From the NCBI RefSeq assembly GCF_022701195.1, contig NZ_CP078089.1:1674001-1738000 (forward strand): a stretch of DNA of 64,000 bases. The letters run 5' to 3'. This DNA is from Allobaculum mucilyticum (GTDB lineage: Bacteria > Bacillota_I > Bacilli_A > Erysipelotrichales > Erysipelotrichaceae). Both the position numbers and the translations under genes were made by a program. Below the pieces are notes generated by a model that had not been told where the DNA came from, did no database searches, and saw only the letters and a list, made by a program, of their open reading frames with translations. Of the stretch, positions 13,502 to 61,924 are shown piece after piece (the stretch's first letter is position 1; each line of letters starts with the position of its first letter).

Positions 13502-14791
13502 ATGAAAATCGGATTTGTATCCCTTGGATGCTCCAAGAACCTTGTCGACTCCGAAGAAATGATGGGCATGCTCAAAGCTGCCGGTCATATCCTTGTCTCC
13601 GATCCGAGACAGGCAGAAGTCATTATCGTCAACACCTGCGGCTTCATCAACCCGGCCAAAGAAGAGAGCATCAACACCATTTTTGAAATGACCCGCTATG
13701 CCGAAAAAGTCATCGTTACCGGCTGCCTTGCACAGCGCTATGAAGACGTCCTCCGCAAAGAGATTCCGGAGGTTGCAGCCGTCATTCCGATCCGCGATTA
13801 TCCAAAACTGCCCCACATTCTTAAAGACCTGCTTAATCAGGATGAAGAAGTCCCGTATGTAAAGTCTTATCGAACAATCTCGGGCAATCCGTGGAGTGCT
13901 TATATTAAGATCAGCGACGGCTGTTCAAACCACTGCACTTTCTGTGCAATTCCTTTGATCCGTGGGGAACAAAAAAGTAAGCTGATAGCAGAAGTCAGGG
14001 AGGAAGCAGAATTCCTGGCCTCTGCCGGTGTCCGAGAGATCACTCTCATTGCCCAGGACACCACAAAATACGGCCTCGACAATTACGGTCAGCTCATGCT
14101 GGCCAAACTCATCCGCGAACTGGATGACATCGACGGTATTCACTGGATTCGTATCCTGTATATGTATCCGGATGAAATCGAAGATGAACTGCTTGAGGCT
14201 ATGAGATCGAGCAGCAAAGTTGTCCCTTACTTCGATATTCCGATGCAGCACGCTAACAACCGTCTGCTGAAGATGATGAACCGCAGGGGTACGAAAGAAG
14301 ACGTGAAGGCCCTTGTGGCTAAGATCCGGGCAATGTTTCCGGAGGCAGTGCTCAGAACGACCGCGATTGTCGGCTTCCCGTCTGAAACTGAAGAGGACTT
14401 TTCAGAGCTGCTGGATTTTATCAGGGAGGTCCGATGGGACCGGCTTGGAGCGTTCACTTACTCGAAAGAGGAAGACACTCCGGCAAGCAGGCTGCCAATG
14501 GAAGTTGATGAGGCCGTGGCAGCTGAGCGACTGAACCGCCTGATGGAGGTTCAGAAAGAAATCAGTCAGGAAAGCAATTTAAAGAAAATCGGGAAGACGT
14601 ATGAAGTGCTGGTTGAGGAGAAAGAAGCCCTTACCGGACGCTATCGCGGCCGTTCCATTGCGGATGCACCGGATGAAGTCGACGGTCAGGTCATCTTCAC
14701 TTCAGAACTGCCCATTGAACCTGGAACATTCGTTCCGGTTCGCGTTACCGATGCTACTCAATATGATCTGATCGGGATCTATGAGGGATAA
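13502..14791 (+). CDS. rimO: Ribosomal protein uS12 methylthiotransferase RimO
   Basis: This encodes 429 residues with an AAGAAGG site before the ATG. It has the three-part radical-SAM methylthiotransferase layout: an N-terminal UPF0004 domain with Cys in SLGCSKNLVDSE, NTCGF and TGCLAQR (first Fe-S cluster); a radical SAM core with CxxxCxxC (GCSNHCTFC at about 140-148); and a C-terminal TRAM domain (YEVLVEEKEALTGRYRGRS). RimO adds a methylthio group to the conserved Asp of ribosomal protein S12. SLGCSKNLVDSE distinguishes RimO from the tRNA enzyme MiaB. The gene ends 60 bases before the first of three tandem small-protein genes. Confidence 0.95.
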   Translation: MKIGFVSLGCSKNLVDSEEMMGMLKAAGHILVSDPRQAEVIIVNTCGFINPAKEESINTIFEMTRYAEKVIVTGCLAQRYEDVLRKEIPEVAAVIPIRDYPKLPHILKDLLNQDEEVPYVKSYRTISGNPWSAYIKISDGCSNHCTFCAIPLIRGEQKSKLIAEVREEAEFLASAGVREITLIAQDTTKYGLDNYGQLMLAKLIRELDDIDGIHWIRILYMYPDEIEDELLEAMRSSSKVVPYFDIPMQHANNRLLKMMNRRGTKEDVKALVAKIRAMFPEAVLRTTAIVGFPSETEEDFSELLDFIREVRWDRLGAFTYSKEEDTPASRLPMEVDEAVAAERLNRLMEVQKEISQESNLKKIGKTYEVLVEEKEALTGRYRGRSIADAPDEVDGQVIFTSELPIEPGTFVPVRVTDATQYDLIGIYEG

Positions 14792-14851
14792 AATTCCGAC
14801 TGGAAGTATTCGTTGAGAAGCAGCGCAACAAAATCAAGGAGGTTATCTGGT

Positions 14852-15115
14852 ATGACCAAGGAACAATTAGTTAATGCTTTGAAAGAAGCTGTTGGCGGAA
14901 CACCTTATGGCGATATGCTCGTTGATGAAGCAGCTGTTACCTATGACGACAAAGATAAGAAATACGGTCAGGATATGAAAGACCGTCTCGATGAGAGACT
15001 TGGTGTCCTGAAAGCTTACGAACGCATCCACAAAGATGCTGGTGCTGAAGCTAAAGCTACAGCAGAAGCGGAAAAGATCGCTGTCGTTGAAAAAGCACTT
15101 GCTGCTCTGAAATAA
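14852..15115 (+). CDS. Unrecognised small helical protein, copy A1 of a six-member family
   Basis: This encodes 87 residues with a near-perfect AAGGAGG site. It is predicted all-helical and cytosolic, with no signal peptide, Cys or Trp. Pattern: MTKEQLVNALKEAVGG, PYGD, a central YDDKDKKYGQDMKDRLDERLG, then YERIHKD and an Ala/Lys/Glu tail ending EKALAALK. It is ~90% identical by eye to the copy at 15344 and clearly related to those at 15656, 55276, 55862 and 56229. Codons are strongly biased (GCT, CGT, GAA, AAA), which together with the ribosome site suggests high expression. No known family is recognised. It lies 60 bases after rimO with no terminator between. Confidence 0.85.
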   Translation: MTKEQLVNALKEAVGGTPYGDMLVDEAAVTYDDKDKKYGQDMKDRLDERLGVLKAYERIHKDAGAEAKATAEAEKIAVVEKALAALK

Positions 15116-15130
15116 GACACATCTGCATAA

Positions 15131-15328
15131 AACAGGAGTTACCTGTTCCATACCTTGACGGACGGCATAAGCTGCCGTACCGGAAATCTGATCAGACACC
15201 GCTTTGCCGGTCAGCCTGATTCAGTCGCGTTCGACAAACCGCCAGCTATGCTGGCACAGCTTTTGCAGTGCGAATCGAACACGGATTGTCCGGACTTCGC
15301 GTCCGGAACTGTATGAGCTTGGCTCATA
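15131..15328 (+). promoter_or_regulatory. Structured spacer: row of five hairpins before small-protein gene A2
   Basis: Five perfect short hairpins follow one another: AACAGG/CCTGTT (15131-15147), ACGGCA/TGCCGT (15162-15178), GCCAGC/GCTGGC (15241-15255), TCCGGAC/GTCCGGA (15289-15307) and TATGAGC/GCTCATA (15312-15328). The last touches the AAGGAG ribosome site of the gene at 15344. None carries a T run, so these look like mRNA structure or processing elements, not terminators. Confidence 0.55.
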
Positions 15329-15343
15329 AGGAGAATATCCATC

Positions 15344-15607
15344 ATGACAAAAGAAGAACTGGTTGCCGCTCTGAAAGCCGCAGTCGGCGGAACCGCTTAT
15401 GGCGACGCTATCGTTGATGAAGCAGCTGCTACATACGACGACAAAGACAAAAAATACGGACAGGACATGAAAGACCGTCTCGATGAGAAACTTGGTGTCC
15501 TCAAAGCTTACGAGCGCATCCATAAAGATGCTGGCGCAGAAGCTAAAGCAACTGCTGAAGCAGACAAGATTGCTATCGTTGAAAAAGCTCTTGCCGCTCT
15601 GAAATAA
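15344..15607 (+). CDS. Unrecognised small helical protein, copy A2
   Basis: This encodes 87 residues from an AAGGAG site that sits directly after a 7-bp hairpin. The sequence is nearly that of copy A1 (MTKEELVAALKAAVGG, DDKDKKYGQDMKDRLDEKLG, EKALAALK), so the two form a subfamily with the YDDKDKKYGQD centre. The spacer to copy A3 is 48 bases. It is predicted as three helices with the Gly-Gly and Tyr-Gly-Asp between helices 1 and 2. Function unknown. Confidence 0.87.
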   Translation: MTKEELVAALKAAVGGTAYGDAIVDEAAATYDDKDKKYGQDMKDRLDEKLGVLKAYERIHKDAGAEAKATAEADKIAIVEKALAALK

Positions 15608-15625
15608 GTAACATCACACTGAAAA

Positions 15626-15638
15626 GATCATTCTGATC
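15626..15638 (+). promoter_or_regulatory. Small hairpin just before the ribosome site of copy A3
   Basis: GATCA-TTC-TGATC immediately precedes the AGGAG of the gene at 15656. It is placed like the hairpins before the copies at 15344 and 55862. Confidence 0.4.
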
Positions 15639-15655
15639 CAGGAGATAAATACATC

Positions 15656-15916
15656 ATGACTAAAACTGAATTCGAAGCTAAACTGCAGGCTGCTGTAGGC
15701 GGATCCGCTTACGGTGACGAAATCGTCAAAGATCTCGTTGATCATTTCGACGAAACTGGCAAATATGCTCAGACCGCTAAAGATCGTCTCGACGACAGAC
15801 TCGGCTCTCTGAAAGGCTGGGAGAAGAGACACAAAGATGAAGGCGACGCAGCTAAAGCTGAAGAAGAAGCCGCTAAAATCGCCCTTGTTGAAAAAGCTCT
15901 TGCAGCTATCGAATAA
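15656..15916 (+). CDS. Unrecognised small helical protein, copy A3 (HFDETGKYAQ type)
   Basis: This encodes 86 residues with a CAGGAG site. Although it is tandem with A1 and A2, its centre reads HFDETGKYAQTAKDRLDDRLG and GWEKRHKDEGD, so it belongs with the distant minus-strand copies at 55276, 55862 and 56229 rather than with its neighbours. It starts MTKTEFEAKLQAAVGG and ends VEKALAAIE. This split shows that two subfamilies existed before the clusters separated. A strong terminator follows. Confidence 0.87.
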   Translation: MTKTEFEAKLQAAVGGSAYGDEIVKDLVDHFDETGKYAQTAKDRLDDRLGSLKGWEKRHKDEGDAAKAEEEAAKIALVEKALAAIE

Positions 15917-15951
15917 CCAACTCGCTCGCTGTAACTTCTGAGTAAATACCC

Positions 15952-15988
15952 AAAACGGGGCAGGGACCACGTCCCTGCCCCGTTTTCT
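15952..15988 (+). terminator. Strong terminator after the small-protein cluster
   Basis: A perfect 15-bp stem (AAAACGGGGCAGGGA with TCCCTGCCCCGTTTT) and a five-base loop. The A/T arms make it usable on both strands. Confidence 0.9.
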
Positions 15989-16017
15989 TAGAAGAAAGAG
16001 GAAAGGCGGGGATTTGA

Positions 16018-16527
16018 ATGAAGTACAGAGAAGGCGGCCTGCAGGAATTTCAGGCGCTTGATCCGATTGTCTCAGAGGACTGTACCACGCTGATCCTGAT
16101 GTCGATGCCCAGCGTCAAGTCAGAACAGGAAAAGTTCTACTTCGCTGATCAGAGCAACCGCTTCTGGTCTCTGATGTCCACGATCTATAAAATGCCCGTG
16201 AAGACAAAAGAAGATTGCCTCGATCTTCTGCACAGAAACCACATCGCGATGTGGTCGGTCATCCAGACCTGCCTGCGCTATCGCAGCCGTGAAGACACAA
16301 TGCAGGATATTGTTCTCAATGACATTCCGGCTTTTCTTAAAAAATATCCGGCAATCCGCCGGATTGTCTGCATCAGCCACGATACGCTCCGGCTGCTTCA
16401 GCAGGCCGATCCGCATGCTGCCGCAATGGCTTACTATGTTCCATCCACTTCAGCAGCGGACTTATGGTACGACGCTGTAGACAAGCTTCTGCCTGAATAC
16501 GCACGGGCACTCGGAGTCAGACTCTGA
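16018..16527 (+). CDS. DNA-deoxyinosine glycosylase-like protein (UDG superfamily, family 6)
   Basis: This encodes 169 residues with GGCGGGG before the ATG. The sequence follows the hypoxanthine-DNA glycosylase branch of the uracil-DNA glycosylase fold: MSMPSVKSEQEKFYFADQSNRFW near the N-terminus (family: GSxPGxxSLxxxxYYxxxxNxFW), then HIAMWSVIQTCLR and a late VPSTSAADLW (family: LPSTSPA). These enzymes excise deaminated bases in DNA. Differences from the usual motifs are Met for Gly and Ser for Gly in the first motif. It sits between terminators as a one-gene unit. Confidence 0.68.
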   Translation: MKYREGGLQEFQALDPIVSEDCTTLILMSMPSVKSEQEKFYFADQSNRFWSLMSTIYKMPVKTKEDCLDLLHRNHIAMWSVIQTCLRYRSREDTMQDIVLNDIPAFLKKYPAIRRIVCISHDTLRLLQQADPHAAAMAYYVPSTSAADLWYDAVDKLLPEYARALGVRL

Positions 16528-21224: not shown

Positions 21225-21301
<77 letters not shown>

Positions 21302-21451
21302 ATGTACAGGCATGGGAATCATCCCTTGTCCTTATAGAATATCACCTCAGGTATTCTGGTCATGTGATCTGACCGGAATCCGGGGGCGGTGCCCATGGGG
21401 CTATATCTTACGGAGTGCGACCAGAGATCTGGTTCGATCCGTTGATAACGA

Positions 21452-21542
21452 TGGCGGAGAAGCAGGGATTCGAACCCTGGCGCCGCTTGCACGACCTACC
21501 GGTTTTCAAGACCGGACCCTTCAACCACTTGGGTACTTCTCC
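21452..21542 (-). tRNA. tRNA-Ser (TGA)
   Basis: 91 bases, with the long variable arm of class II tRNAs, anticodon loop CTTGAAA, acceptor GGAGAAG/CTTCTCC and encoded CCA. Confidence 0.93.
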
Positions 21543-21563
21543 ATAACATATAAGATATAAAAA

Positions 21564-21640
21564 TGGTGGCTAGGGTGAGACTCGAACTCACGACCTTCCG
21601 GGTATGAACCGGATGCTCTAGCCAACTAAGCTACCTAGCC
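21564..21640 (-). tRNA. tRNA-Met (CAT), elongator
   Basis: 77 bases, acceptor GGCTAGG/CCTAGCC fully paired, anticodon loop TTCATAC as in Gram-positive elongator tRNA-Met, and CCA encoded. Confidence 0.88.
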
Positions 21641-21656
21641 ATATATATAGATAAAA

Positions 21657-21733
21657 TGGTCGGGACGACAGGATTTGAACCTGCGACCCCTTGCACCCCA
21701 TGCAAGTGCACTACCAAGCTGTGCTACGTCCCG
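21657..21733 (-). tRNA. tRNA-Pro (GGG)
   Basis: 77 bases, acceptor CGGGACG/CGTCCCG, anticodon stem CTTGC/GCAAG with loop ATGGGGT, CCA encoded. The body is nearly identical to the tRNA-Pro (TGG) at 26151, differing mostly in the anticodon arm. Confidence 0.9.
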
Positions 21734-21739
21734 AAAAAA

Positions 21740-21816
<77 letters not shown>

Positions 21817-22142: not shown

Positions 22143-22889
22143 ATGGAAAAACTTGTACTGCTTCGCCATGGCGAAAGTGAATGGAATAAGGAAAACCGTT
22201 TTACCGGATGGACCGACGTAGATCTGTCTGAAAAAGGACATGAAGAAGCAAAAGAAGCCGGACGTCTGCTTCGTGATGAGGGAATTGTTCTGGATAAGGC
22301 TTATACGTCGTATCTGAAACGGGCGATCCATACGCTCAATCATGTTCTTGATGAGCTGGATGAAAACTATATTCCGGTAGAAAAGACCTGGAAACTGAAT
22401 GAACGCCATTATGGAGCACTTCAGGGCCTGAACAAAGCCGATACCGCTAAGAAATTCGGAGAAGAGCAGGTGCAGATCTGGCGCCGTTCCTTCGATGTGC
22501 TTCCTCCGGCACTCAGTCCGGATGACGAACGGGCACCGAGAAATCAGGCTCAGTATTCGAAGATTCCAGCCGATGAGCTGCCGTTAGCAGAATCGCTCAA
22601 GACAACGATAGAGCGGGTTGTTCCATATTATAAGGAACACATTGAACCGGATGTGAAAGATGGCCAGACGGTTGTGATTGCAGCCCATGGAAATTCTCTT
22701 CGCGCACTGGTTAAATATCTGGACGGTATCAGTGACGAAGAGATCGTTAAGCTCAATATCCCGACTGGCGTACCGCTGGTTTATGAGTTTGACGATGATA
22801 TGAACGTTCTGCGCCATTACTATCTGGGCAATCAGGATGAGCTGAAAGCCAAGATGGAAGCTGTCGCCAATCAGGGGAAAGCAAAATAG
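22143..22889 (+). CDS. gpmA: 2,3-bisphosphoglycerate-dependent phosphoglycerate mutase
   Basis: This encodes 248 residues; the ATG at 22143 follows GGAGGGA. It keeps all known GpmA residues: [24 protein letters not shown] with the phospho-His, [15 protein letters not shown], the WRRSFD arginine pair and [14 protein letters not shown], and it ends in the usual ANQGKAK. It interconverts 3- and 2-phosphoglycerate in glycolysis. A second, divergent copy lies at 24745, with an IS4-type element between them. A terminator follows directly. Confidence 0.95.
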
Positions 22890-24744: not shown

Positions 24745-25503
24745 ATGAAGAGACTGATTCTGCTTCGTCATGGTGAAAGCGAATGGAATAAAGAAAAACG
24801 CTTCACAGGGTGGAGTGATATTGATTTAAGTGCAGAAGGTCACAGAGAAGCGGCGAAAGCCGGAAAACGTCTGAAAGCAGAAGGTATTCAGATCGATCAG
24901 GCCTTTACATCCTGGCTGAAGCGTGCAGTCCATACCCTCAATCATGTCCTGGATGAGCTGGATCAGAACTATATCCCGGTCACAAAGAGCTGGAGACTCA
25001 ATGAGCGCAGCTATGGAGCACTCCAGGGCTGCTTTCAGGCAGATGTCGTAAACCAGTATGGCAAAGAACTGGTCAGCGCATGGCGCGATTCGCTCGATGC
25101 ACAGCAGCCGGTTCTTAACCCGCAGGATCCGCGCTCTCCTTTATGTCAGCCCCGTTATGATGGAATCCCCAGAGATCAGCTGCCGCTTGGCGAATCATTG
25201 CAGATGCTCATGGACCGGATTGTTCCGTTTTATAAAGAGCAGATCGAGCCGGCTGTTGCGGCGGATCAGACTGTTCTGATTGCGGCACATGGCAATGCGC
25301 TTGGTGTTCTGATGAAATATCTCAACGATACAGCGGCCAAAGATCCTGCTTCGATTGAACCGGATGTGGAATTTCCGCTGATCTATGAGCCGCCAACGGG
25401 TATCCCGATGGTTTATGAGTTTGACGATGATATGCATATCGTCCGTTTCTGTTGCCTTGGCGACCATGAAGAAGTTCTTGAGCGGTCCGGAAGAATCGGA
25501 TAG
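24745..25503 (+). CDS. Divergent phosphoglycerate mutase paralogue
   Basis: This encodes 252 residues with a GGGAGGGG site. It keeps the histidine-phosphatase core ([23 protein letters not shown]-x-YGALQG, AAHGNAL) but differs where GpmA holds the phosphoglycerate: ERHYG is ERSYG, LNK is CFQ (loss of the Lys equivalent to K100 of E. coli), WRR is WRD, and HGNSLRA is HGNALGV. About 18 residues are inserted before the C-terminal TGIPMVYEFDDD, and the ANQGKAK tail is absent. It may be a mutase of altered activity or a phosphatase. It sits after the IS, in tandem with the canonical copy. Confidence 0.82.
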   Translation: MKRLILLRHGESEWNKEKRFTGWSDIDLSAEGHREAAKAGKRLKAEGIQIDQAFTSWLKRAVHTLNHVLDELDQNYIPVTKSWRLNERSYGALQGCFQADVVNQYGKELVSAWRDSLDAQQPVLNPQDPRSPLCQPRYDGIPRDQLPLGESLQMLMDRIVPFYKEQIEPAVAADQTVLIAAHGNALGVLMKYLNDTAAKDPASIEPDVEFPLIYEPPTGIPMVYEFDDDMHIVRFCCLGDHEEVLERSGRIG

Positions 25504-25680: not shown

Positions 25681-25756
25681 TGGTGGTCTCTGTCGGAATC
25701 GAACCAACGACACAAGGATTTTCAGTCCTTTGCTCTACCAACTGAGCTAAGAGACC
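25681..25756 (-). tRNA. tRNA-Phe (GAA)
   Basis: 76 bases, acceptor GGTCTCT/AGAGACC, anticodon loop CTGAAAA, CCA encoded. Last gene of cluster 2 and absent from cluster 1. Confidence 0.93.
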
Positions 25757-25759
25757 ACA

Positions 25760-25836
<77 letters not shown>

Positions 25837-25952
25837 ATGTGCTTAGATATAATATCTTGAAGGATTTCAGAATGCAAGGATTAATTTCGGAATTTTTGAA
25901 ATTCTTCATCTGGCTGTTTTCTGTCTTCCATTCTGAACCTGAAGTGGCAAAT

Positions 25953-26029
25953 TGGTGGACCCTGCAGGACTTGAACCCGCGACCAACCGGTTATGAGCCG
26001 GCAGCTCTGACCAACTGCGCTAAGGGTCC
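25953..26029 (-). tRNA. tRNA-Ile2 (CAT, lysidine type)
   Basis: 77 bases. The anticodon loop CTCATAA sits in a GCCGG/CCGGT stem, with acceptor GGACCCT/AGGGTCC typical of the AUA-reading tRNA-Ile whose C34 becomes lysidine. It differs from both the initiator and elongator Met tRNAs here. The 116 bases between it and tRNA-fMet carry no gene. Confidence 0.75.
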
Positions 26030-26066
26030 AGAAGTAAGACTGGATCTGTAAAGCAGATATAAAAAG

Positions 26067-26143
26067 TGGTGGCTAGGGTGAGACTCGAACTCACGACCTT
26101 CCGGGTATGAACCGGATGCTCTGGCCAACTAAGCTACCTAGCC
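26067..26143 (-). tRNA. tRNA-Met (CAT), elongator, second copy
   Basis: Differs from 21564-21640 by one base in the D-arm region (GGCCAGAGC against GGCTAGAGC). CCA encoded. Confidence 0.88.
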
Positions 26144-26150
26144 ATAAAAA

Positions 26151-26227
26151 TGGTCGGGACGACAGGATTCGAACCTGCGACCCCCTGGTCCCAAACCAGG
26201 TGCACTACCAAGCTGTGCTACGTCCCG
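26151..26227 (-). tRNA. tRNA-Pro (TGG)
   Basis: 77 bases, anticodon stem CCTGG/CCAGG with loop TTTGGGA. Outside the anticodon arm it is almost identical to tRNA-Pro (GGG) at 21657. Confidence 0.92.
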
Positions 26228-26232
26228 ACAAA

Positions 26233-26309
<77 letters not shown>

Positions 26310-55210: not shown

Positions 55211-55275
55211 CTGGGTTGAAAGAGTGTTTTTTGTGAGCCGGTCTGGGGCCGGCGTTTTTGGGGGACGCTGCGAGC

Positions 55276-55536
55276 TTAAGCGATAGCAGCGAGAGCTTTT
55301 TTGACGAGAGCGATCTTTTCTGCTTCAACAGCAGCTTTTGCGTCGTCGCCTTCTGCTTTGTGTTTCTTCTCCCAGCCAGTCAGAGTGCCGAGGCGCTCAT
55401 CGAGACGGTCTTTAGCGGTCTGAGCATATTTGCCGGTTTCGTCGAAGTGAGCAGTCAGATCAGCGATGATTTCATCACCGTATTCTGTGCCGCCTACAGC
55501 AGCTTCAAGGGCTTTTGTGAATTCTTCTTTTGTCAT
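55276..55536 (-). CDS. Unrecognised small helical protein, copy B3
   Basis: This encodes 86 residues with a GGGAGG site. It shares MTKEEFTKALEAAVGG, YGDEIIADL, the invariant HFDETGKYAQTAKDRLDERLG and GWEKKHKAEGD with copies A3, B1 and B2. The C-terminus KKALAAIA closes a predicted third helix. It has its own promoter-like block at 55551-55593, which is shared with copy B1. Highly biased codons suggest strong expression. Confidence 0.87.
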   Translation of the reverse strand: MTKEEFTKALEAAVGGTEYGDEIIADLTAHFDETGKYAQTAKDRLDERLGTLTGWEKKHKAEGDDAKAAVEAEKIALVKKALAAIA

Positions 55537-55550
55537 GAGGATGACCTCCC

Positions 55551-55593
55551 TTTTCTTTACGCACTTATCATACGAGTCCCATCGAAATATTCC
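55551..55593 (-). promoter_or_regulatory. Promoter-like block of copy B3, shared with copy B1
   Basis: On the minus strand GGAAT, 16 bases, TATGAT, then GTAAAGAAAAGG leading into the ribosome site. The block upstream of 56492 has GGAAC, 16 bases, TATGAT and GTAAAGAAAAGG. GGAAY is not a standard -35. Confidence 0.5.
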
Positions 55594-55753
55594 TGTTCAG
55601 ATGACCGCAAAAAAATCGGAATAAACGATGAATAAAATACAGAGAATGAGATTAGATTACTGTTGTTCGTGGCAAGCCATCTGCCCGAAGAGTGCCAGTG
55701 CTGGATGCCTGGATCTGCCTCTGGATCTGCTCTGCCTTTCCCTGAAGCTGAAG

Positions 55754-55767
55754 TGCCCGATCGGGCA
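55754..55767. repeat. Perfect 14-bp palindrome
   Basis: TGCCCGATCGGGCA lies in the 325-base gap between copies B2 and B3. The remainder of the gap holds no gene. Confidence 0.5.
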
Positions 55768-55799
55768 TCCGGCAAGAGTAAAGAGAAAGAAATCAGAAC

Positions 55800-55829
55800 A
55801 AAAGAAAACGGAGGGAACGAGTCCCTCCG
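55800..55829 (-). terminator. Terminator of small-protein copy B2
   Basis: On the minus strand CGGAGGGA-CTCGT-TCCCTCCG is followed by TTTTCTTTT. Confidence 0.85.
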
Positions 55830-55861
55830 AACGTGATGCGGTGTCTTGTCTGCCAGATCAG

Positions 55862-56122
55862 TTAAGCGATAGCAGCGAGAGCTTTTTTAGCGATAGCGAT
55901 CTTTTCAGCTTCTTCAGCAGCTTTAGCGGTTTCGCCTTCGGCAGTATGTTTCTTTTCCCATCCGGTGAGGGTAGCGATTCTCTCGTCGAGACGGTCTTTA
56001 GCGGTCTGAGCATATTTGCCAGTTTCGTCGAAGTGTGCAACCAGGTCAGCGATGATTTCGTCGCCGTAAGCTGTGCCGCCAACTGCGGTTTCAAGTACTT
56101 TTTTGAATTCGTCTTTTGTCAT
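55862..56122 (-). CDS. Unrecognised small helical protein, copy B2
   Basis: This encodes 86 residues from the ATG at 56122 with an AAGGAGG site; a longer frame to 56191 runs through hairpins and is rejected. It is very close to copy B3 (MTKDEFKKVLETAVGG, HFDETGKYAQTAKDRLDERIA, GWEKKHTAEGE, KKALAAIA). It lies 106 bases after copy B1 without a terminator between, so the pair is probably one transcript, with hairpins in the spacer. Confidence 0.87.
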   Translation of the reverse strand: MTKDEFKKVLETAVGGTAYGDEIIADLVAHFDETGKYAQTAKDRLDERIATLTGWEKKHTAEGETAKAAEEAEKIAIAKKALAAIA

Positions 56123-56145
56123 GATAGATGACCTCCTTAGTGGTT

Positions 56146-56228: not shown

Positions 56229-56492
56229 TTATGCGTTGATGGCTGCCAGAGCCTTCAGAACAACCGCAAGCTTGTCAGCCTCGTCGGCTGCTTTTGCATA
56301 ATCGCCTGCAGCGATATGTTTTTTCAGCCAGCCGTTGATCGAGCCAAGACGCTCGTCGAGACGGTCTTTTGCGTTCTGAGCGTACTTGCCGGTTTCATCG
56401 AAGTGCTCCGCCAGATCTGCGACGACTTCTTTACCGTAGTCGGAAGCACCAATTGCGGCATCCAGTTTTTTGGTGAAATCTTCATTCGTCAT
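56229..56492 (-). CDS. Unrecognised small helical protein, copy B1 (most divergent)
   Basis: This encodes 87 residues from the ATG at 56492 (AAGGAGA site). It keeps the HFDETGKYAQNAKDRLDERLG core but differs at the ends: MTNEDFTKKLDAAIGASDYGKEV replaces the VGG-x-x-YGDEI turn, GWLKKHIAAGDYAKAADEADKL replaces the acidic helix, and it ends LKALAAINA. First gene of the minus-strand cluster, with a promoter-like block upstream. Confidence 0.85.
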   Translation of the reverse strand: MTNEDFTKKLDAAIGASDYGKEVVADLAEHFDETGKYAQNAKDRLDERLGSINGWLKKHIAAGDYAKAADEADKLAVVLKALAAINA

Positions 56493-56506: not shown

Positions 56507-56549
56507 TTTTCTTTACACACACATCATACCGGGTGAGTTGAAGTGTTCC
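56507..56549 (-). promoter_or_regulatory. Promoter-like block of copy B1
   Basis: GGAAC, 16 bases, TATGAT, then GTAAAGAAAAGG on the minus strand. Same layout and spacing as 55551-55593. Confidence 0.5.
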
Positions 56550-56878
56550 TTTTGGCGTGCTCATCTTTTTTGCGGAATGTTTCTGATGCTTTAAGACAGT
56601 AAAATGTATGGAAAAGAATGCTGTGAAGGATATACATCCGTCGTGAATGTCCAGTCAGATGCTCAGTTCACCCCAAATTTGCGAATGGAAAAATGGGGTG
56701 CCTGTGTTCCTGAAAGAGAAAAAGACACAGGCTAAACAGCAGAGAAGAGAGAGCGAAGAGCAGAGAAAGTCTGTACAGACAGGCGGGTGTGCCTGAAGGA
56801 GAAGCAGGCAGACCTGCGTACAATACGGATAAGAAGTACTATAAGAAATAAATATTGAACGATCAGGAGGGTTTGAAT
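56550..56878. other. Intergenic region between small-protein cluster and membrane peptide
   Basis: No other gene is seen. Two loose stems occur: CACCCCA/TGGGGTG at about 56669-56701 and CCTGTGT/ACACAGG at about 56701-56733. TATAAG at about 56840 could be the -10 for the peptide gene, without a clear -35. Confidence 0.35.
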
Positions 56879-57199: not shown

Positions 57200-57229
57200 T
57201 TTCATTTGACCTTTTGTTCCTTTTATAAT
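57200..57229 (+). promoter_or_regulatory. Probable promoter of the family 2 glycosidase gene
   Basis: TATAAT at 57224-57229, with TTTCAT 18 bases upstream as a weak -35. The region 57120-57223 is very A/T rich. The start would be about 50 bases before the ATG. Confidence 0.5.
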
Positions 57230-57286
57230 AAGGGTGATTTTCAAGGCAACTTGATGATTCAGGGATTATTTATAAGAGGAAAAGAA

Positions 57287-60200
57287 ATGAAAAACACGAA
57301 ATGGCTTCGACGCACAGGTGCGACTCTGCTTGGCGGAATGATGGCAATCAGTTCCGTTTCCATGCAGATGAGCCTTCCTGTTGCAGCTGAAGAAACCAAT
57401 TCTGATCAGATGGTTTCTGCACCGGAAATTGTTCCTGTTACGCAGATTAACGATCAGGCCAGAACGGTCAACCTGAACTCCGGATGGAAATTCACCCTGT
57501 CCGATCCGGCAAATGCGCAGAACAGCACATTTGATGATTCTCTCTGGGAGAGCGTCAATCTTCCCCACGATTACTCGATCGACCAGGAATACACCGCTCA
57601 GGGTGAAGCGGAGAGCGGATACAAGCTTGGCGGCGTGGGCTGGTACCGCAAATCCTTCACACTTGGCTCTTCATTTAACAAGCGTGTGGTTGTGGAATTC
57701 AACGGTGTCTATATGGACTGCCAGGTCTATCTCAACGGACACAAACTGGGCGAACATCCATACGGCTATACCGGTTTTGCATTTGATCTGACTGATTATC
57801 TGAATAAGGATGGCGAGAACGTTCTTGCGGTCCGCGTCAATCATCAGACCCCGTCTTCCCGCTGGTATTCCGGAAGCGGTATTTACCGTGACGTCAATCT
57901 GACTATTACAGATGCTGTGCATGTCGGTTATGACGGCGTTGTTGTCAGCTCGCCAAATCTGAAAGCAGAAAAGGATTCCGGTACTGTAACAACGAAAACA
58001 AAAGTTGATGTAGTCAACGATTCCGATGCATCTAAAACAGTAACTGTGAAAAACACGATCATCGCTGCAGATGGTACTGAAATCGGAACGAAATCAAGCG
58101 ATCAGACAGTTGCAGCAAATGCAGCAGCGACTGTTGAACAGGATATTGCTGCATCGTCTCCAGAGCTCTGGAGCACAGAAAATCCAAATCTGTATACCCT
58201 TAAAACAGAAATCCTGGATGGACCCGATGTCATCGATACTGTCGAAACATCGTTTGGATACCGCTATTTCGAATTTGACCGTGACACAGGCTTCTCTCTA
58301 AACGGCAAGAAAACCAAACTGAAAGGCGTGTGCATGCATCACGACCAGGGCGCCCTTGGTGCTGCTGCAGATGACCGTGCCATGGAACGCCAGATTCAGA
58401 TCATGAAGAAAATGGGCGTCAATGCGATCCGTATTACCCATAACCCTGGCGATCCGGACTTCATTGCCGCGTGCAGCCGTGAAGGCATTCTTGTAATCAA
58501 CGAAATTTTCGATGGCTGGATCGGTTCTAAGAACGGAAACAGCATGGATTATGCCCGCTTCTTCAACCAGACCGTCGGTTCGGACAATGAAATTCTCAAC
58601 AAAAAAGACGGCGAAAAATGGTCGCAGTTTGATGTGCGTGCTGCAGTCCAGGAAAGCCGCAACGAACCATCTGTCATCATGTACTCCCTTGGAAACGAGA
58701 TTTTTGAAGGATCTTATGACTGGAGTGCACAGAGCGGTGCTATTGCAAAAGAACTGATTGCCGGCGTCAAAGAAAACAATACCGATCAGCTGGTCACCTT
58801 TGGAGGCAATAAACTTAAGCGTGGCGGTACGCAGGAAAATGCGGTCGCCGATGCAATTACAGAAGCTGGCGGCGTTGTCGGCGCGAACTATTTCTCCAGC
58901 GGAGAGTTCGATGAAATTTTCAATCAGCACACCGGATGGACTCTGTATGGTTCAGAAACTGCATCTCATGTCAATTCCCGCGGCGTATATAACGTATTGG
59001 GAAGCCAGGCCTTGAATTCAGATCTGCTTCTGACCAGCTACGATTACTCTGCGGTTGGCTGGGGAAAATCAGCCAGCGACGCGTGGTATACAACGATTAC
59101 TTCTGACTACAATGCAGGTGAATTTGTCTGGACCGGCTTTGACTATCTTGGCGAGCCAACTCCAAAGAACGGAACTGGTTCGGGCTGGACTGCCGGAACG
59201 AATTCGCCGAAGAACTCCTATTTTGGAATTGTCGACACAGCCGGCCTGCCTAAAGACAACTATTACCTGTACCAGAGCTTATGGAACGAAGATGTCAATA
59301 CGCTTCATGTTCTCCCGGCATGGAACCGCGATGCAGTGACCACGAACGGAAACGGAAAAGTTCCTGTTGTCGTCTATTCCGATGCTCCAAGTGTCGAACT
59401 GTTCTTTACGCCAAAAGGCTCGACCGAGCGTACATCGCTTGGCAAAAAGACATTTACTGAGAAGACGACAGATGCCGGCTACACTTATCAGCTTTATGAA
59501 GGCGCAGGCAAACAGAACGCGGAGCATCGTAACCTGTATCTGACCTGGGATGTTGAGTACCAGGACGGCAAGATTGAAGCTGTTGCTTACGATAAGGATG
59601 GCAATCAGATCACAGATACAGAAGGCCGCAGCTTTGTAGAAACAGCGGATGCGTTCTCGAATATTGAGCTGGAAGCAGATCGTCCTGTAATTGACGGCGA
59701 CGGTACCGATCTTTCCTACGTCACCATTTCGCTGACCGACAGTGATGGAACGATTGTTCCAACGGCAAAAAACAACGTGAAGGTTACTGTTGAAGGTGCC
59801 GGAGAACTGGCTGGTCTGGATAACGGCGTACAGCCGGATCATCAGAGCTACCGCGACAACAACCGCAAAGCACAGGCTGGTCAGCTTGTAGCAATCATTC
59901 GCTCCAATGGCAAAGCAGGCGATATCACTGTCAAAGCTTCGGCAGACGGCGTTGAATCCGAACCGCTTACCATCAAAGCAAATGAAGTTGCAGGAGAGAC
60001 AGGCGACTCTCTGACAAGCTTTGAATATTCGCGTATTTATTATGTAAAAACCGGAACGAAACCTTCGCTCCCATCAACAATCACAGCTCATTACAATGAC
60101 GGCACTTCCGACTCGAAAGCTGTAGTCTGGGAAGATATCGATGATGCACAGGTTGTAGAATCGGGTACATTCTCTGTTCGCGGAACCTGCGATGGTCAGA

Positions 60201-61924
60201 CAGTCAGCGTGACGGTCTATGTCATTGATGCAGTATCGAGTCTGCTCAATGTATCTCAGGTCGTTGCCAAGGGCGTCGTACCGACACTGCCGGAAACCCG
60301 CCGTGCTGTTCTTGATGACGGTGAAATCCTCGATGCCAGCTTTGAAGTTGACTGGCAGATGCCAGAAGCTTCCGCGTTTGCGGAAGCCGGAACAGTAGAA
60401 ATTCCTGGTACAGCAACTGTATTTGGTCAGACTGTTCCAGTAAAAGCATACGTTCGCGTAGCTGATGCAGAGGTCACTCTTGCAGAAAGCGTAACGCCGG
60501 CAGCTAAAGTCTCGCAGAGCATTCCTGCAGAATTGCAGAGCGACAGTCTTGAGGCGATCAAAGACGGCGATACAGAATATAAGACAGTACAAAGCGGTCC
60601 GAACACTTCTGTCTGGTCCAACTATGACTACTGCTTCAATACGCCGGAAAACAAGACCTGCTACGTTGACTTTGAATATGACACGCAGCAGACGGTCGGA
60701 CAGATCAAGATTCATTTTGCTTCTGATGGATGGTCCGCTTCTTACCCTGATGCAAATACGACAAAATTTGAGATCAGTGAGGACGGAACCAACTGGAAAG
60801 AACTTCAGGCAACAGAAACTATCGGTGAAGCTACCGGAAATCAGACATGCTACACCTATAATTTTGCCCCGGTTAGCTATACCTTCCTGCGCGTTAACTT
60901 CACGAACCCTGATGGCAAAAAACCAGGAAACAACAATAACAAGTGCCTTGCGGTAACAGAAGTTGAACAGTTCAAAGCTGTCAGCTCGATCGTCACCTAT
61001 GGCGATGCAGAGCTTGAAAGCCTGACTCTTGGCGGCGAAGCAGTTGATGCAGCAATGCTTGCAACAAAGACTGTCACCACCAAACAGGCACCTGGAACTC
61101 TGGAATTCACTTCGAAGAACAATGGTGCTGTTACCGTTCTTCCTGTCATCAACGACACCCAGGTACTGCTTGTTGAAGCAGAAGACGCTTCTGATATTAC
61201 GAAATACACCATTCAGTACAACACTGCTGACCCGTCTGACGACTACCGCGACATTGACCGGACCCGTCTGACAGCTGAAGCTGGTTCGGCGCAGGAACCT
61301 GGCAATGCTGCTTCCTGCGTTCTGGATAACAATACAGGAACACACTGGCATACAGCCTGGGATCCAAAAGCAGATAATGATGAGCTCTGGATTGTACTGA
61401 AATCGTCCAACGGTGAAGAAATGACTGTTGACGGTCTGCGCTATCTGCCACGTACGGAGATGATCAACGGTCTGATTTACACCTATCGCATCGAAGCACT
61501 TGGTGCTGACGGTGAATGGACAACAGTAGCCGAAGGCGACTTTGAGCGGGATAATTCGACCTGGAAACGCGTTCAGTTTAACCCGGTGAAGACCACTGCA
61601 ATCCGTCTGTTTGCGGTTGATTCTCATGAAGATAAGGCAGGACGTCACGCAAGTGCCGCAGAACTTCGTCTGACCGGTTCCATTTCTGATGGCGAAGAAC
61701 TCAATTACACTCTGATTGATCAGGTACTCGAAACGAAGGACGATGTCGTAGCTGGCAACTTCAAGTCGACTGCGGATTATACAAAAGCATGGAACAGTGC
61801 AGATTCAATTCGCAATACGGCTGTTACGCAGGAAGCTCTTGATGATGCAGCAATTGCCCTGAACCAGGAACTGCTGAAACTTCGTCTGAATCCTTCCAAA
61901 GAAGCGCTCGACAACCTGAAATAA
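57287..61924 (+). CDS. Secreted multidomain glycoside hydrolase family 2 (beta-galactosidase-type)
   Basis: This encodes 1545 residues from the ATG at 57287 (AGAGGA site). A signal peptide covers ~1-35. The GH2 sugar-binding domain is ~60-205 (LPHDYSID, GGVGWYRKSF, SGIYRDV), an Ig-like sandwich ~215-325, and the TIM barrel ~330-640 with acid/base Glu in SLGNEIFEGS (~470) and nucleophile Glu in YGSETAS (~556). DUF4982-like and GH2 C-terminal Ig domains follow to ~900, two Big_4-like Ig units (~910-1062), two F5/8-type C (discoidin) carbohydrate-binding domains (~1065-1240, ~1325-1470) and a C-terminal helical hairpin. No LPxTG or anchor. It likely trims beta-galactosides or similar sugars from host or dietary glycans; linkage unknown. 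Confidence 0.9.
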   Translation: MKNTKWLRRTGATLLGGMMAISSVSMQMSLPVAAEETNSDQMVSAPEIVPVTQINDQARTVNLNSGWKFTLSDPANAQNSTFDDSLWESVNLPHDYSIDQEYTAQGEAESGYKLGGVGWYRKSFTLGSSFNKRVVVEFNGVYMDCQVYLNGHKLGEHPYGYTGFAFDLTDYLNKDGENVLAVRVNHQTPSSRWYSGSGIYRDVNLTITDAVHVGYDGVVVSSPNLKAEKDSGTVTTKTKVDVVNDSDASKTVTVKNTIIAADGTEIGTKSSDQTVAANAAATVEQDIAASSPELWSTENPNLYTLKTEILDGPDVIDTVETSFGYRYFEFDRDTGFSLNGKKTKLKGVCMHHDQGALGAAADDRAMERQIQIMKKMGVNAIRITHNPGDPDFIAACSREGILVINEIFDGWIGSKNGNSMDYARFFNQTVGSDNEILNKKDGEKWSQFDVRAAVQESRNEPSVIMYSLGNEIFEGSYDWSAQSGAIAKELIAGVKENNTDQLVTFGGNKLKRGGTQENAVADAITEAGGVVGANYFSSGEFDEIFNQHTGWTLYGSETASHVNSRGVYNVLGSQALNSDLLLTSYDYSAVGWGKSASDAWYTTITSDYNAGEFVWTGFDYLGEPTPKNGTGSGWTAGTNSPKNSYFGIVDTAGLPKDNYYLYQSLWNEDVNTLHVLPAWNRDAVTTNGNGKVPVVVYSDAPSVELFFTPKGSTERTSLGKKTFTEKTTDAGYTYQLYEGAGKQNAEHRNLYLTWDVEYQDGKIEAVAYDKDGNQITDTEGRSFVETADAFSNIELEADRPVIDGDGTDLSYVTISLTDSDGTIVPTAKNNVKVTVEGAGELAGLDNGVQPDHQSYRDNNRKAQAGQLVAIIRSNGKAGDITVKASADGVESEPLTIKANEVAGETGDSLTSFEYSRIYYVKTGTKPSLPSTITAHYNDGTSDSKAVVWEDIDDAQVVESGTFSVRGTCDGQTVSVTVYVIDAVSSLLNVSQVVAKGVVPTLPETRRAVLDDGEILDASFEVDWQMPEASAFAEAGTVEIPGTATVFGQTVPVKAYVRVADAEVTLAESVTPAAKVSQSIPAELQSDSLEAIKDGDTEYKTVQSGPNTSVWSNYDYCFNTPENKTCYVDFEYDTQQTVGQIKIHFASDGWSASYPDANTTKFEISEDGTNWKELQATETIGEATGNQTCYTYNFAPVSYTFLRVNFTNPDGKKPGNNNNKCLAVTEVEQFKAVSSIVTYGDAELESLTLGGEAVDAAMLATKTVTTKQAPGTLEFTSKNNGAVTVLPVINDTQVLLVEAEDASDITKYTIQYNTADPSDDYRDIDRTRLTAEAGSAQEPGNAASCVLDNNTGTHWHTAWDPKADNDELWIVLKSSNGEEMTVDGLRYLPRTEMINGLIYTYRIEALGADGEWTTVAEGDFERDNSTWKRVQFNPVKTTAIRLFAVDSHEDKAGRHASAAELRLTGSISDGEELNYTLIDQVLETKDDVVAGNFKSTADYTKAWNSADSIRNTAVTQEALDDAAIALNQELLKLRLNPSKEALDNLK

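Follow-up and report, generated by a model that had tools for sequence, protein, structure and literature searches.

The stretch of DNA analyzed here, called the window, comprises 64,000 nucleotides of the Allobaculum mucilyticum genome (contig NZ_CP078089.1, positions 1,674,001 to 1,738,000). It carries six genes for small proteins of the FRAT-87 family, three on the plus strand (cluster 1) and three on the minus strand (cluster 2). No other FRAT-87 copy was found in the genome (3,144,153 bases in one contig). The six open reading frames (ORFs), of 86 or 87 codons, lie exactly where a sequence-only reading of the window had placed them. The coordinates below include the stop codons, and B1 is the lowest-numbered copy of cluster 2. 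Bit scores refer to the family model NF045479, and the codon adaptation index (CAI) and its null draws are explained below.

14852..15115, plus strand: FRAT-87 copy A1 (87 residues), first gene after rimO; 133 bits; CAI 0.712
15344..15607, plus strand: FRAT-87 copy A2 (87 residues), 89% identical to A1; 131 bits; CAI 0.838, reached by 0 of 2000 null draws
15656..15916, plus strand: FRAT-87 copy A3 (86 residues), of the 86-residue kind, also by its place in the tree; 136.5 bits; CAI 0.850, 0 of 2000 draws
55276..55536, minus strand: FRAT-87 copy B1 (86 residues); 137.1 bits; CAI 0.851, 0 of 2000 draws; confident structural model
55862..56122, minus strand: FRAT-87 copy B2 (86 residues); 135.4 bits; CAI 0.886, the highest, 0 of 2000 draws
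56229..56492, minus strand: FRAT-87 copy B3 (87 residues); 126.7 bits; CAI 0.748

Family identity

The proteins had been described as unrecognised from the sequence alone. This is wrong, because all six match the NCBIfam model NF045479.1 'FRAT-87 protein' with E-values of 3e-37 to 2e-40 and 126.7–137.1 bits, far above the curated cut-off of 50. Each match starts at the first of the 86 model positions and ends at 85 or 86, as a single domain in proteins of 86 or 87 residues, and no difference from members was seen. The model description gives the name without a stated function. In a full-text literature search, none of the papers covered contained the name 'FRAT-87', and no title or abstract opening among those listed dealt with the family.

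The claim that there is no characterised relative held in Pfam, PHROGs, PADLOC and PDB sequences. Twelve family members had no accepted Pfam match, all rows being below cut-off (for example ISG65-75, DUF883 and TPR_11). PHROGs gave no match for the three of the six copies scanned, and the anti-phage defence models of PADLOC matched none of the six at E up to 1. When A1, A2 and one distant relative were compared with PDB sequences, nothing credible emerged, the best E-values being 0.63, 0.027 (a designed protein) and 0.7, and BFVD structures gave no match below E 0.001. No FRAT-87 was found in phages or plasmids, and none of 15 stretches of viral contigs that fitted a pattern was confirmed as FRAT-87. 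CsbD/YjbJ-type stress proteins of other bacteria are comparable in being small, hydrophilic, abundant and undescribed in mechanism; the lack of an accepted Pfam match in the 12 members sets FRAT-87 apart from them. There is no sign of a nucleoid protein of the HU type: PF00216 was not matched, and the isoelectric points of the six copies (4.9–5.2) are not basic. A true HU is present in all 11 genomes searched, seven of which carry FRAT-87.

The alignment of the six copies spans their full length, with 30 of 88 columns invariant. The proteins are rich in Ala, Lys, Glu and Asp, have grand averages of hydropathy of −0.39 to −0.69 and contain no cysteine, as had been noted, and purine-rich ribosome binding sites precede all six genes, again in agreement with the sequence-only reading. 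Its common motifs are less general than proposed. A3 and B1–B3 share the HFDETGKYAQ core, a G-W pair (within GWEKxH in three of the six copies) and the KALAAI ending, whereas A1 and A2 have TYDDKDKKYGQ, AYERIH and KALAAL at these places. The YGDEI 'turn' occurs in three copies (YGDML, YGDAI and YGKEV in the others), and in the model helix 2 begins here in place of a turn.

FRAT-87 is a real and conserved orphan family, probably a very abundant one, to which NCBI had already given its name. The family itself is thus no discovery; new here are the numbers on the signs of expression, the insertion site, the structural model and the promoter block.

Distribution and phylogeny

In the bacterial family Erysipelotrichaceae, NF045479 scored above its cut-off in 7 of 272 genomes; at E 0.1 or better there were 26, of which 19 lay below the cut-off. 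A profile built from 31 FRAT-87 sequences recovered 8 of the 272 at E 0.02, the eighth by a single weak row. The search of a genome collection returned 12 FRAT-87 loci from the same organisms. Three genomes of the genus of the window, which includes Allobaculum sp. Allo2 (G001), contain 6, 5 and 5 copies. Ileibacterium valens has seven, Ileibacterium sp. MAG6 (so titled, but counted by the search as another genus) five, M10-2 two, and OPF54 three, two of which are identical. A survey of copy number, suggested by the sequence-only reading, thus gives 5–7 copies in Allobaculum and Ileibacterium and 2–3 in M10-2 and OPF54. Two further genomes of the window's genus, at 66–67% completeness, showed no FRAT-87. 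One I. valens copy is strongly diverged (L074:187-510, minus strand), with 99.7 bits to the NCBI model and 24.3 to the 31-sequence profile. In OPF54, a rimO region of at least 9 kb occurs twice, 114 kb apart and with identical proteins (L064 and L065), owing either to a duplication of recent date or to an artefact of the assembly, which has 10% contamination.

The alignment holds 31 of the 33 family matches; the identical OPF54 duplicate and the diverged I. valens copy were left out, as they were from the tree, codon and promoter counts. Ten rows of 87 residues, all at the rimO locus, form a group with support of 96/85 that stands apart from A3, B1–B3 and the others, while 14 of the 28 inner branches are weakly supported. 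The separation of A3 from its neighbours A1 and A2 is therefore borne out, and the tree and the purifying selection described below support the view that the two subfamilies are old and have been retained. Two RD49 copies are 98.8% identical in coding DNA and only 60% and 29% identical in the 100 bases before and after it, which suggests gene conversion, or a duplication confined to the coding part. One Allo2 copy (L078:6620-6886) ends in KKPSLLSPNQL where the others have KKALAAI.., as a late change of frame would produce.

Codon usage

The CAI was calculated with 23 ribosomal genes as the reference. Each left out in turn, these have a CAI of 0.737 (standard deviation (sd) 0.038), compared with 0.628 for 20 window genes, the maximum of which is 0.734. 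Four of the six FRAT-87 copies (A2, A3, B1 and B2) surpass EF-Tu (0.820). For the null, the protein was kept fixed and codons were drawn from the usage of the 20 window genes. Those four copies were reached by none of 2000 synonymous draws; B3 is about 2 sd, and A1 about 1 sd, above its own null. The biased codons reported earlier are thus confirmed in four copies, weaker in B3 and weak in A1.

For relatives, the ribosomal genes of each genome (19–23) and 500 synonymous draws were used. In Allo2, RD49, I. valens and MAG6, 18 of 21 copies exceeded all 500 draws, and the other three were equalled by 2, 3 and 16. The CAI, the comparison with EF-Tu and the draws in relatives all bear out the signs of abundance noted earlier, and the codon use suggests that few proteins of the cell are made in larger amounts than FRAT-87.

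Long open frames lie opposite the FRAT-87 genes (15617-15970, minus strand; 55258-55632 and 55628-56131, plus strand), and 'similar' counterparts of the first two occur in relatives. In all likelihood the codon bias gave rise to them, and they could mislead automatic annotation.

Selection and conserved residues

The ratio of nonsynonymous to synonymous substitution rates (dN/dS) was 0.016–0.095 in five ortholog pairs between the window and Allo2, with dS of 1.0–2.2; dS was saturated in two M10-2/OPF54 pairs. Judged by these ratios, the FRAT-87 genes are coding genes under strong purifying selection. Entropy was computed over 29 rows, two short distant relatives (79–82 residues) being left out. 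The first half of helix 3 has a mean of 0.49 bits versus 0.92–1.40 in six other tabulated segments; the loop before it has 0.99. A near-invariant polar stretch spans residues 32–48 approximately (D32, K36, Y37, Q39, K42, D43, R44, D46 and R48).

The sequence-only reading had guessed at a scaffold, storage or stress role, which the present data neither prove nor disprove. The conservation bears on the idea of a storage or buffer protein, a reserve of nitrogen or amino acids or a crowding agent without a specific partner. Such a role would agree with a small protein of this composition, devoid of cysteine, encoded by many copies and apparently abundant. It is very unlikely, as a mere reserve would not call for dN/dS values as low as 0.016 or for a polar segment that hardly varies.

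Predicted structure

AlphaFold2 monomer models, a check proposed in the sequence-only reading, are confident (mean predicted local distance difference test of 95.1 for B1 and 96.8 for a second model) and all-helical. They consist of four helices, two short ones followed by a long antiparallel hairpin (residues 37–61 and 65–85). The fold comparison gave no significant match. In the models, the nearest arrangement appears to be that of the N-terminal domain of YqeY (PF09424; PDB 8xje, 8xjg), with homology unproven: it ranked best with the A1 model and tenth with the B1 model, level with helical chains that are unrelated. In profile comparisons between FRAT-87 and YqeY, 1, 2 and 7 of 100 shuffles were as good. 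Sequence and profile similarity are not significant. A scan of 12 proteins at E up to 10 returned no row for PF09424, with filters that drop most matches above about 0.1. YqeY further differs by its C-terminal (GatB-tail) domain, whereas FRAT-87 ends with helix 4; four aligned YqeYs of the bacterial family have 147 residues or more. YqeY was not found in four FRAT-87 genomes (G000, G001, G002 and G031; two of them 58–65% complete) among the 59 searched. With YfhH/DUF1811 (PDB 1sf9, 2yxy), the alignment begins at residue 15–16 of the FRAT-87 model and leaves helix 1 outside; its family PF08838 was found in none of 149 genomes of a phylum sample. It is conceivable, if unlikely, that FRAT-87 is a factor associated with RNA, tRNA or the ribosome, in the form of a free-standing domain with the architecture of the YqeY/GatB N-terminal helical domain and present at the level of translation factors.

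The models also touch on a role outside the cell, as a factor that is exported or acts at the surface and helps a gut commensal to colonise its host. FRAT-87 occurs in only a few lineages, of gut origin, within a single bacterial family, which would fit this role, and the size and helical hairpin are reminiscent of WXG100-like proteins. Yet the type VII secretion marker YukC/EssB was found in none of the seven FRAT-87 genomes searched, which speaks against a WXG100-type substrate of this machinery, and the N-terminus opens directly with the conserved MTK helix. Export is highly improbable.

Genomic context

Cluster 1 lies between two genes, and a dUTPase-like gene then follows.

13502..14791, plus strand: rimO, upstream neighbour and partner in an old gene pair, as judged by synteny; TIGR01125, 498 bits
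16018..16527, plus strand: DNA-deoxyinosine glycosylase (UDG superfamily), downstream neighbour; TIGR04274, 91 bits

A search for rimO gave a match in 136 of 170 genomes, and the best 30 loci fetched were read downstream. FRAT-87 was present at five. Among the other 25 loci, 24 had a glycosylase-like ORF, recognised by eye in other genera, that starts −10 to +8 bases from the end of rimO; the remaining one had a recombinase-like ORF. A diverged relative of 79–82 residues occupies the same place in M10-2 and OPF54. The simplest reading of this gene order would be that FRAT-87 was inserted into an old rimO–glycosylase pair. Pyrimidine genes are close to the cluster 2 copies of the window, Allo2 and one RD49 locus; at other loci these copies have other surroundings.

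A small lipoprotein of the Lipoprotein_Ltp family (PF07553; 54645-55043, minus strand) is encoded beside B1. On the other side of cluster 2, a large enzyme of glycoside hydrolase family 2 is encoded (57206-61924, plus strand), which carries F5/8 type C and Ig-like domains. Two phosphoglycerate-mutase-like genes, named by eye (22143-22886, with a His_Phos_1 match, and 24745-25500, plus strand), share 140 of 252 residues. Each is near a minus-strand tRNA array (21225-21816 and 25681-26309), and both arrays start, in transcription order, with Arg-Pro-Met.

Promoters and terminators

A conserved block was found upstream of a TATNAT-like hexamer at 10 of the 14 copies outside the rimO locus in Allobaculum and Ileibacterium, in five genomes. 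The best-preserved form is that of B3. The other four copies (B2, one of Allo2 and two of I. valens) and the copies of cluster 1 do not display it.

55566..55622, minus strand: promoter block of B1 (ATTCCG..CGGTC..AACAGGA-N18-TATGAT), from cross-copy comparison
56522..56578, minus strand: promoter block of B3 (ATTCCG-N9-TGAGC-N5-AAAAGGA-N18-TATGAT), from cross-copy comparison

In six of the ten, the mean identity of the block was 0.62; the 18-base spacer had 0.37, and two upstream stretches of 50 bases had 0.26–0.27. Eight columns are identical in at least nine of the ten blocks; random shifts gave at most one (0 of 2000), common descent not being allowed for. With one copy per genome, seven block columns are identical in all five. 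The −10 hexamers were picked by eye before the flanks were scored, and the register of the Allo2 site is shifted by one base. No TTGACA-type −35 element was found for B1 or B3, the other block promoters being judged by eye, and no sigma-70-like site was found in cluster 1 (14500-16300). The pattern scan covered the retrieved loci (870,853 bases with overlaps), where the looser AAAAGGA-N18-TATNAT, with one change allowed, also matches unrelated places.

With the hexamer at −12 to −7, the TGAGC element occupies −47 to −43. G-46 and C-43 are each present in 9 of 10 promoters and G-44 in 7, while −45 to −42 reads AGCA in 3 and AGCG in 2. In the Bacillus subtilis trxB promoter, AGCA at −45 to −42 contacts Spx and the C-terminal domain of the RNA polymerase alpha subunit (Spx-alphaCTD), and G-44 and C-43 are indispensable (PMC2801614). 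The match between TGAGC and the Spx site should for now be regarded as a coincidence of position.

In the promoter region of one I. valens copy (L072:6147-6404, minus strand), a perfect 22-base palindrome, ATTCCGATGAATTCATCGGAAT, lies between the conserved TGAGC and the −10 element and is a possible operator.

The block, conserved and free of TTGACA, leans weakly to regulated, possibly stress-linked expression. FRAT-87 could then be a stress-linked abundant protein, protective or housekeeping, acting in redox or envelope stress, with an Spx-type activator at the separate copies. Ten promoters in five genomes with the block at a fixed distance from the hexamer argue for it, as may the overlap of the block with the trxB contact positions. 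The full AGCA in 3 of 10 and the lack of G-44 in 3 of 10 do not, and the resemblance to Spx sites was spotted post hoc with hand-picked hexamers. Moreover, the ten promoters belong to related copies, a kinship that random shifts ignore, the block is missing at the copies named above, and codon optimisation better fits abundance in the growth phase. A stress role is held to be unlikely.

The strong terminators of the sequence-only reading are represented by one very strong hairpin after A3 and by a lesser one after B2. A hairpin further downstream of B1 has a z-score of −3.7, and the sequence immediately downstream of A1, A2 and B3 showed none on their own strand. The leader of A2 (15195-15343) folds into several hairpins with −49 kcal/mol and a z-score of −1.8, 9 of 200 shuffles being as good.

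15952..15986, plus strand: terminator hairpin after A3 (16 pairs, loop of 3); −38.3 kcal/mol, z-score −9.1, 0 of 200 shuffles as good
55809..55829, minus strand: terminator-like hairpin and T run after B2; z-score −1.9, 8 of 200 shuffles as good

Discussion

FRAT-87 is lineage-specific, amplified to five to seven copies in Allobaculum and Ileibacterium genomes, and its codons are here optimised like those of EF-Tu. It is tentatively proposed, at somewhat less than an even chance, that FRAT-87, as an abundant protein of the cytosol, engages a partner in stoichiometric binding, and that its genes have been amplified for dosage. The small, soluble, four-helix protein would be made in very large amounts, and the dose would be raised by extra gene copies with separate promoters. 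A codon use similar to that of EF-Tu, the number of copies and their separate promoters point to a stoichiometric role, in which an abundant partner would be bound instead of a reaction being catalyzed. The best guess for the binding face is the near-invariant polar stretch, in the first half of helix 3 and the preceding loop. The partner may be RNA or the ribosome, another protein, or FRAT-87 itself; RNA or the ribosome is perhaps the single most likely, albeit with a rather low probability of its own.

Several observations weigh against stoichiometric binding by an abundant protein. In M10-2, 2 and 7 of 500 draws were as high as the two genes, and in OPF54 11 and 362 of 500. As the bias is moderate to absent in these genomes, where the family has only two genes (M10-2) or three including one identical duplicate (OPF54), abundance does not characterise the family as a whole, and the extreme bias goes with the amplified lineages. 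Abundance is read from codon bias, an indirect sign, and A1 is barely biased. No evidence points to a particular partner. Paralog pairs reach a dN/dS of 0.287, and the ratios are rough because dS is near saturation. Most of the named polar residues are lacking in the two distant short relatives, and these residues could be structural.

A more far-reaching and quite unlikely possibility is that FRAT-87 is a lineage-born, free-standing version of the helical, RNA-anchoring domain of YqeY/GatB, highly abundant in Allobaculum and Ileibacterium. It would be dosed by amplification and by gene conversion of the coding region, and switched by an undescribed type of activator-dependent promoter, thus representing a new class of abundant factor in gut commensals, associated with translation or stress.

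The mouse gut commonly harbours Allobaculum and Ileibacterium. To the extent that codon use can be trusted, a family that bears a name without a described function is produced there at the level of EF-Tu. FRAT-87 would in that case account for a large share of the cell protein, be an anonymous signal in gut metaproteomes and offer a good target for understanding how a lineage-specific gene becomes so heavily used. With the codon numbers, the insertion site, the confident model and the promoter block in hand, the question can be tested right away.
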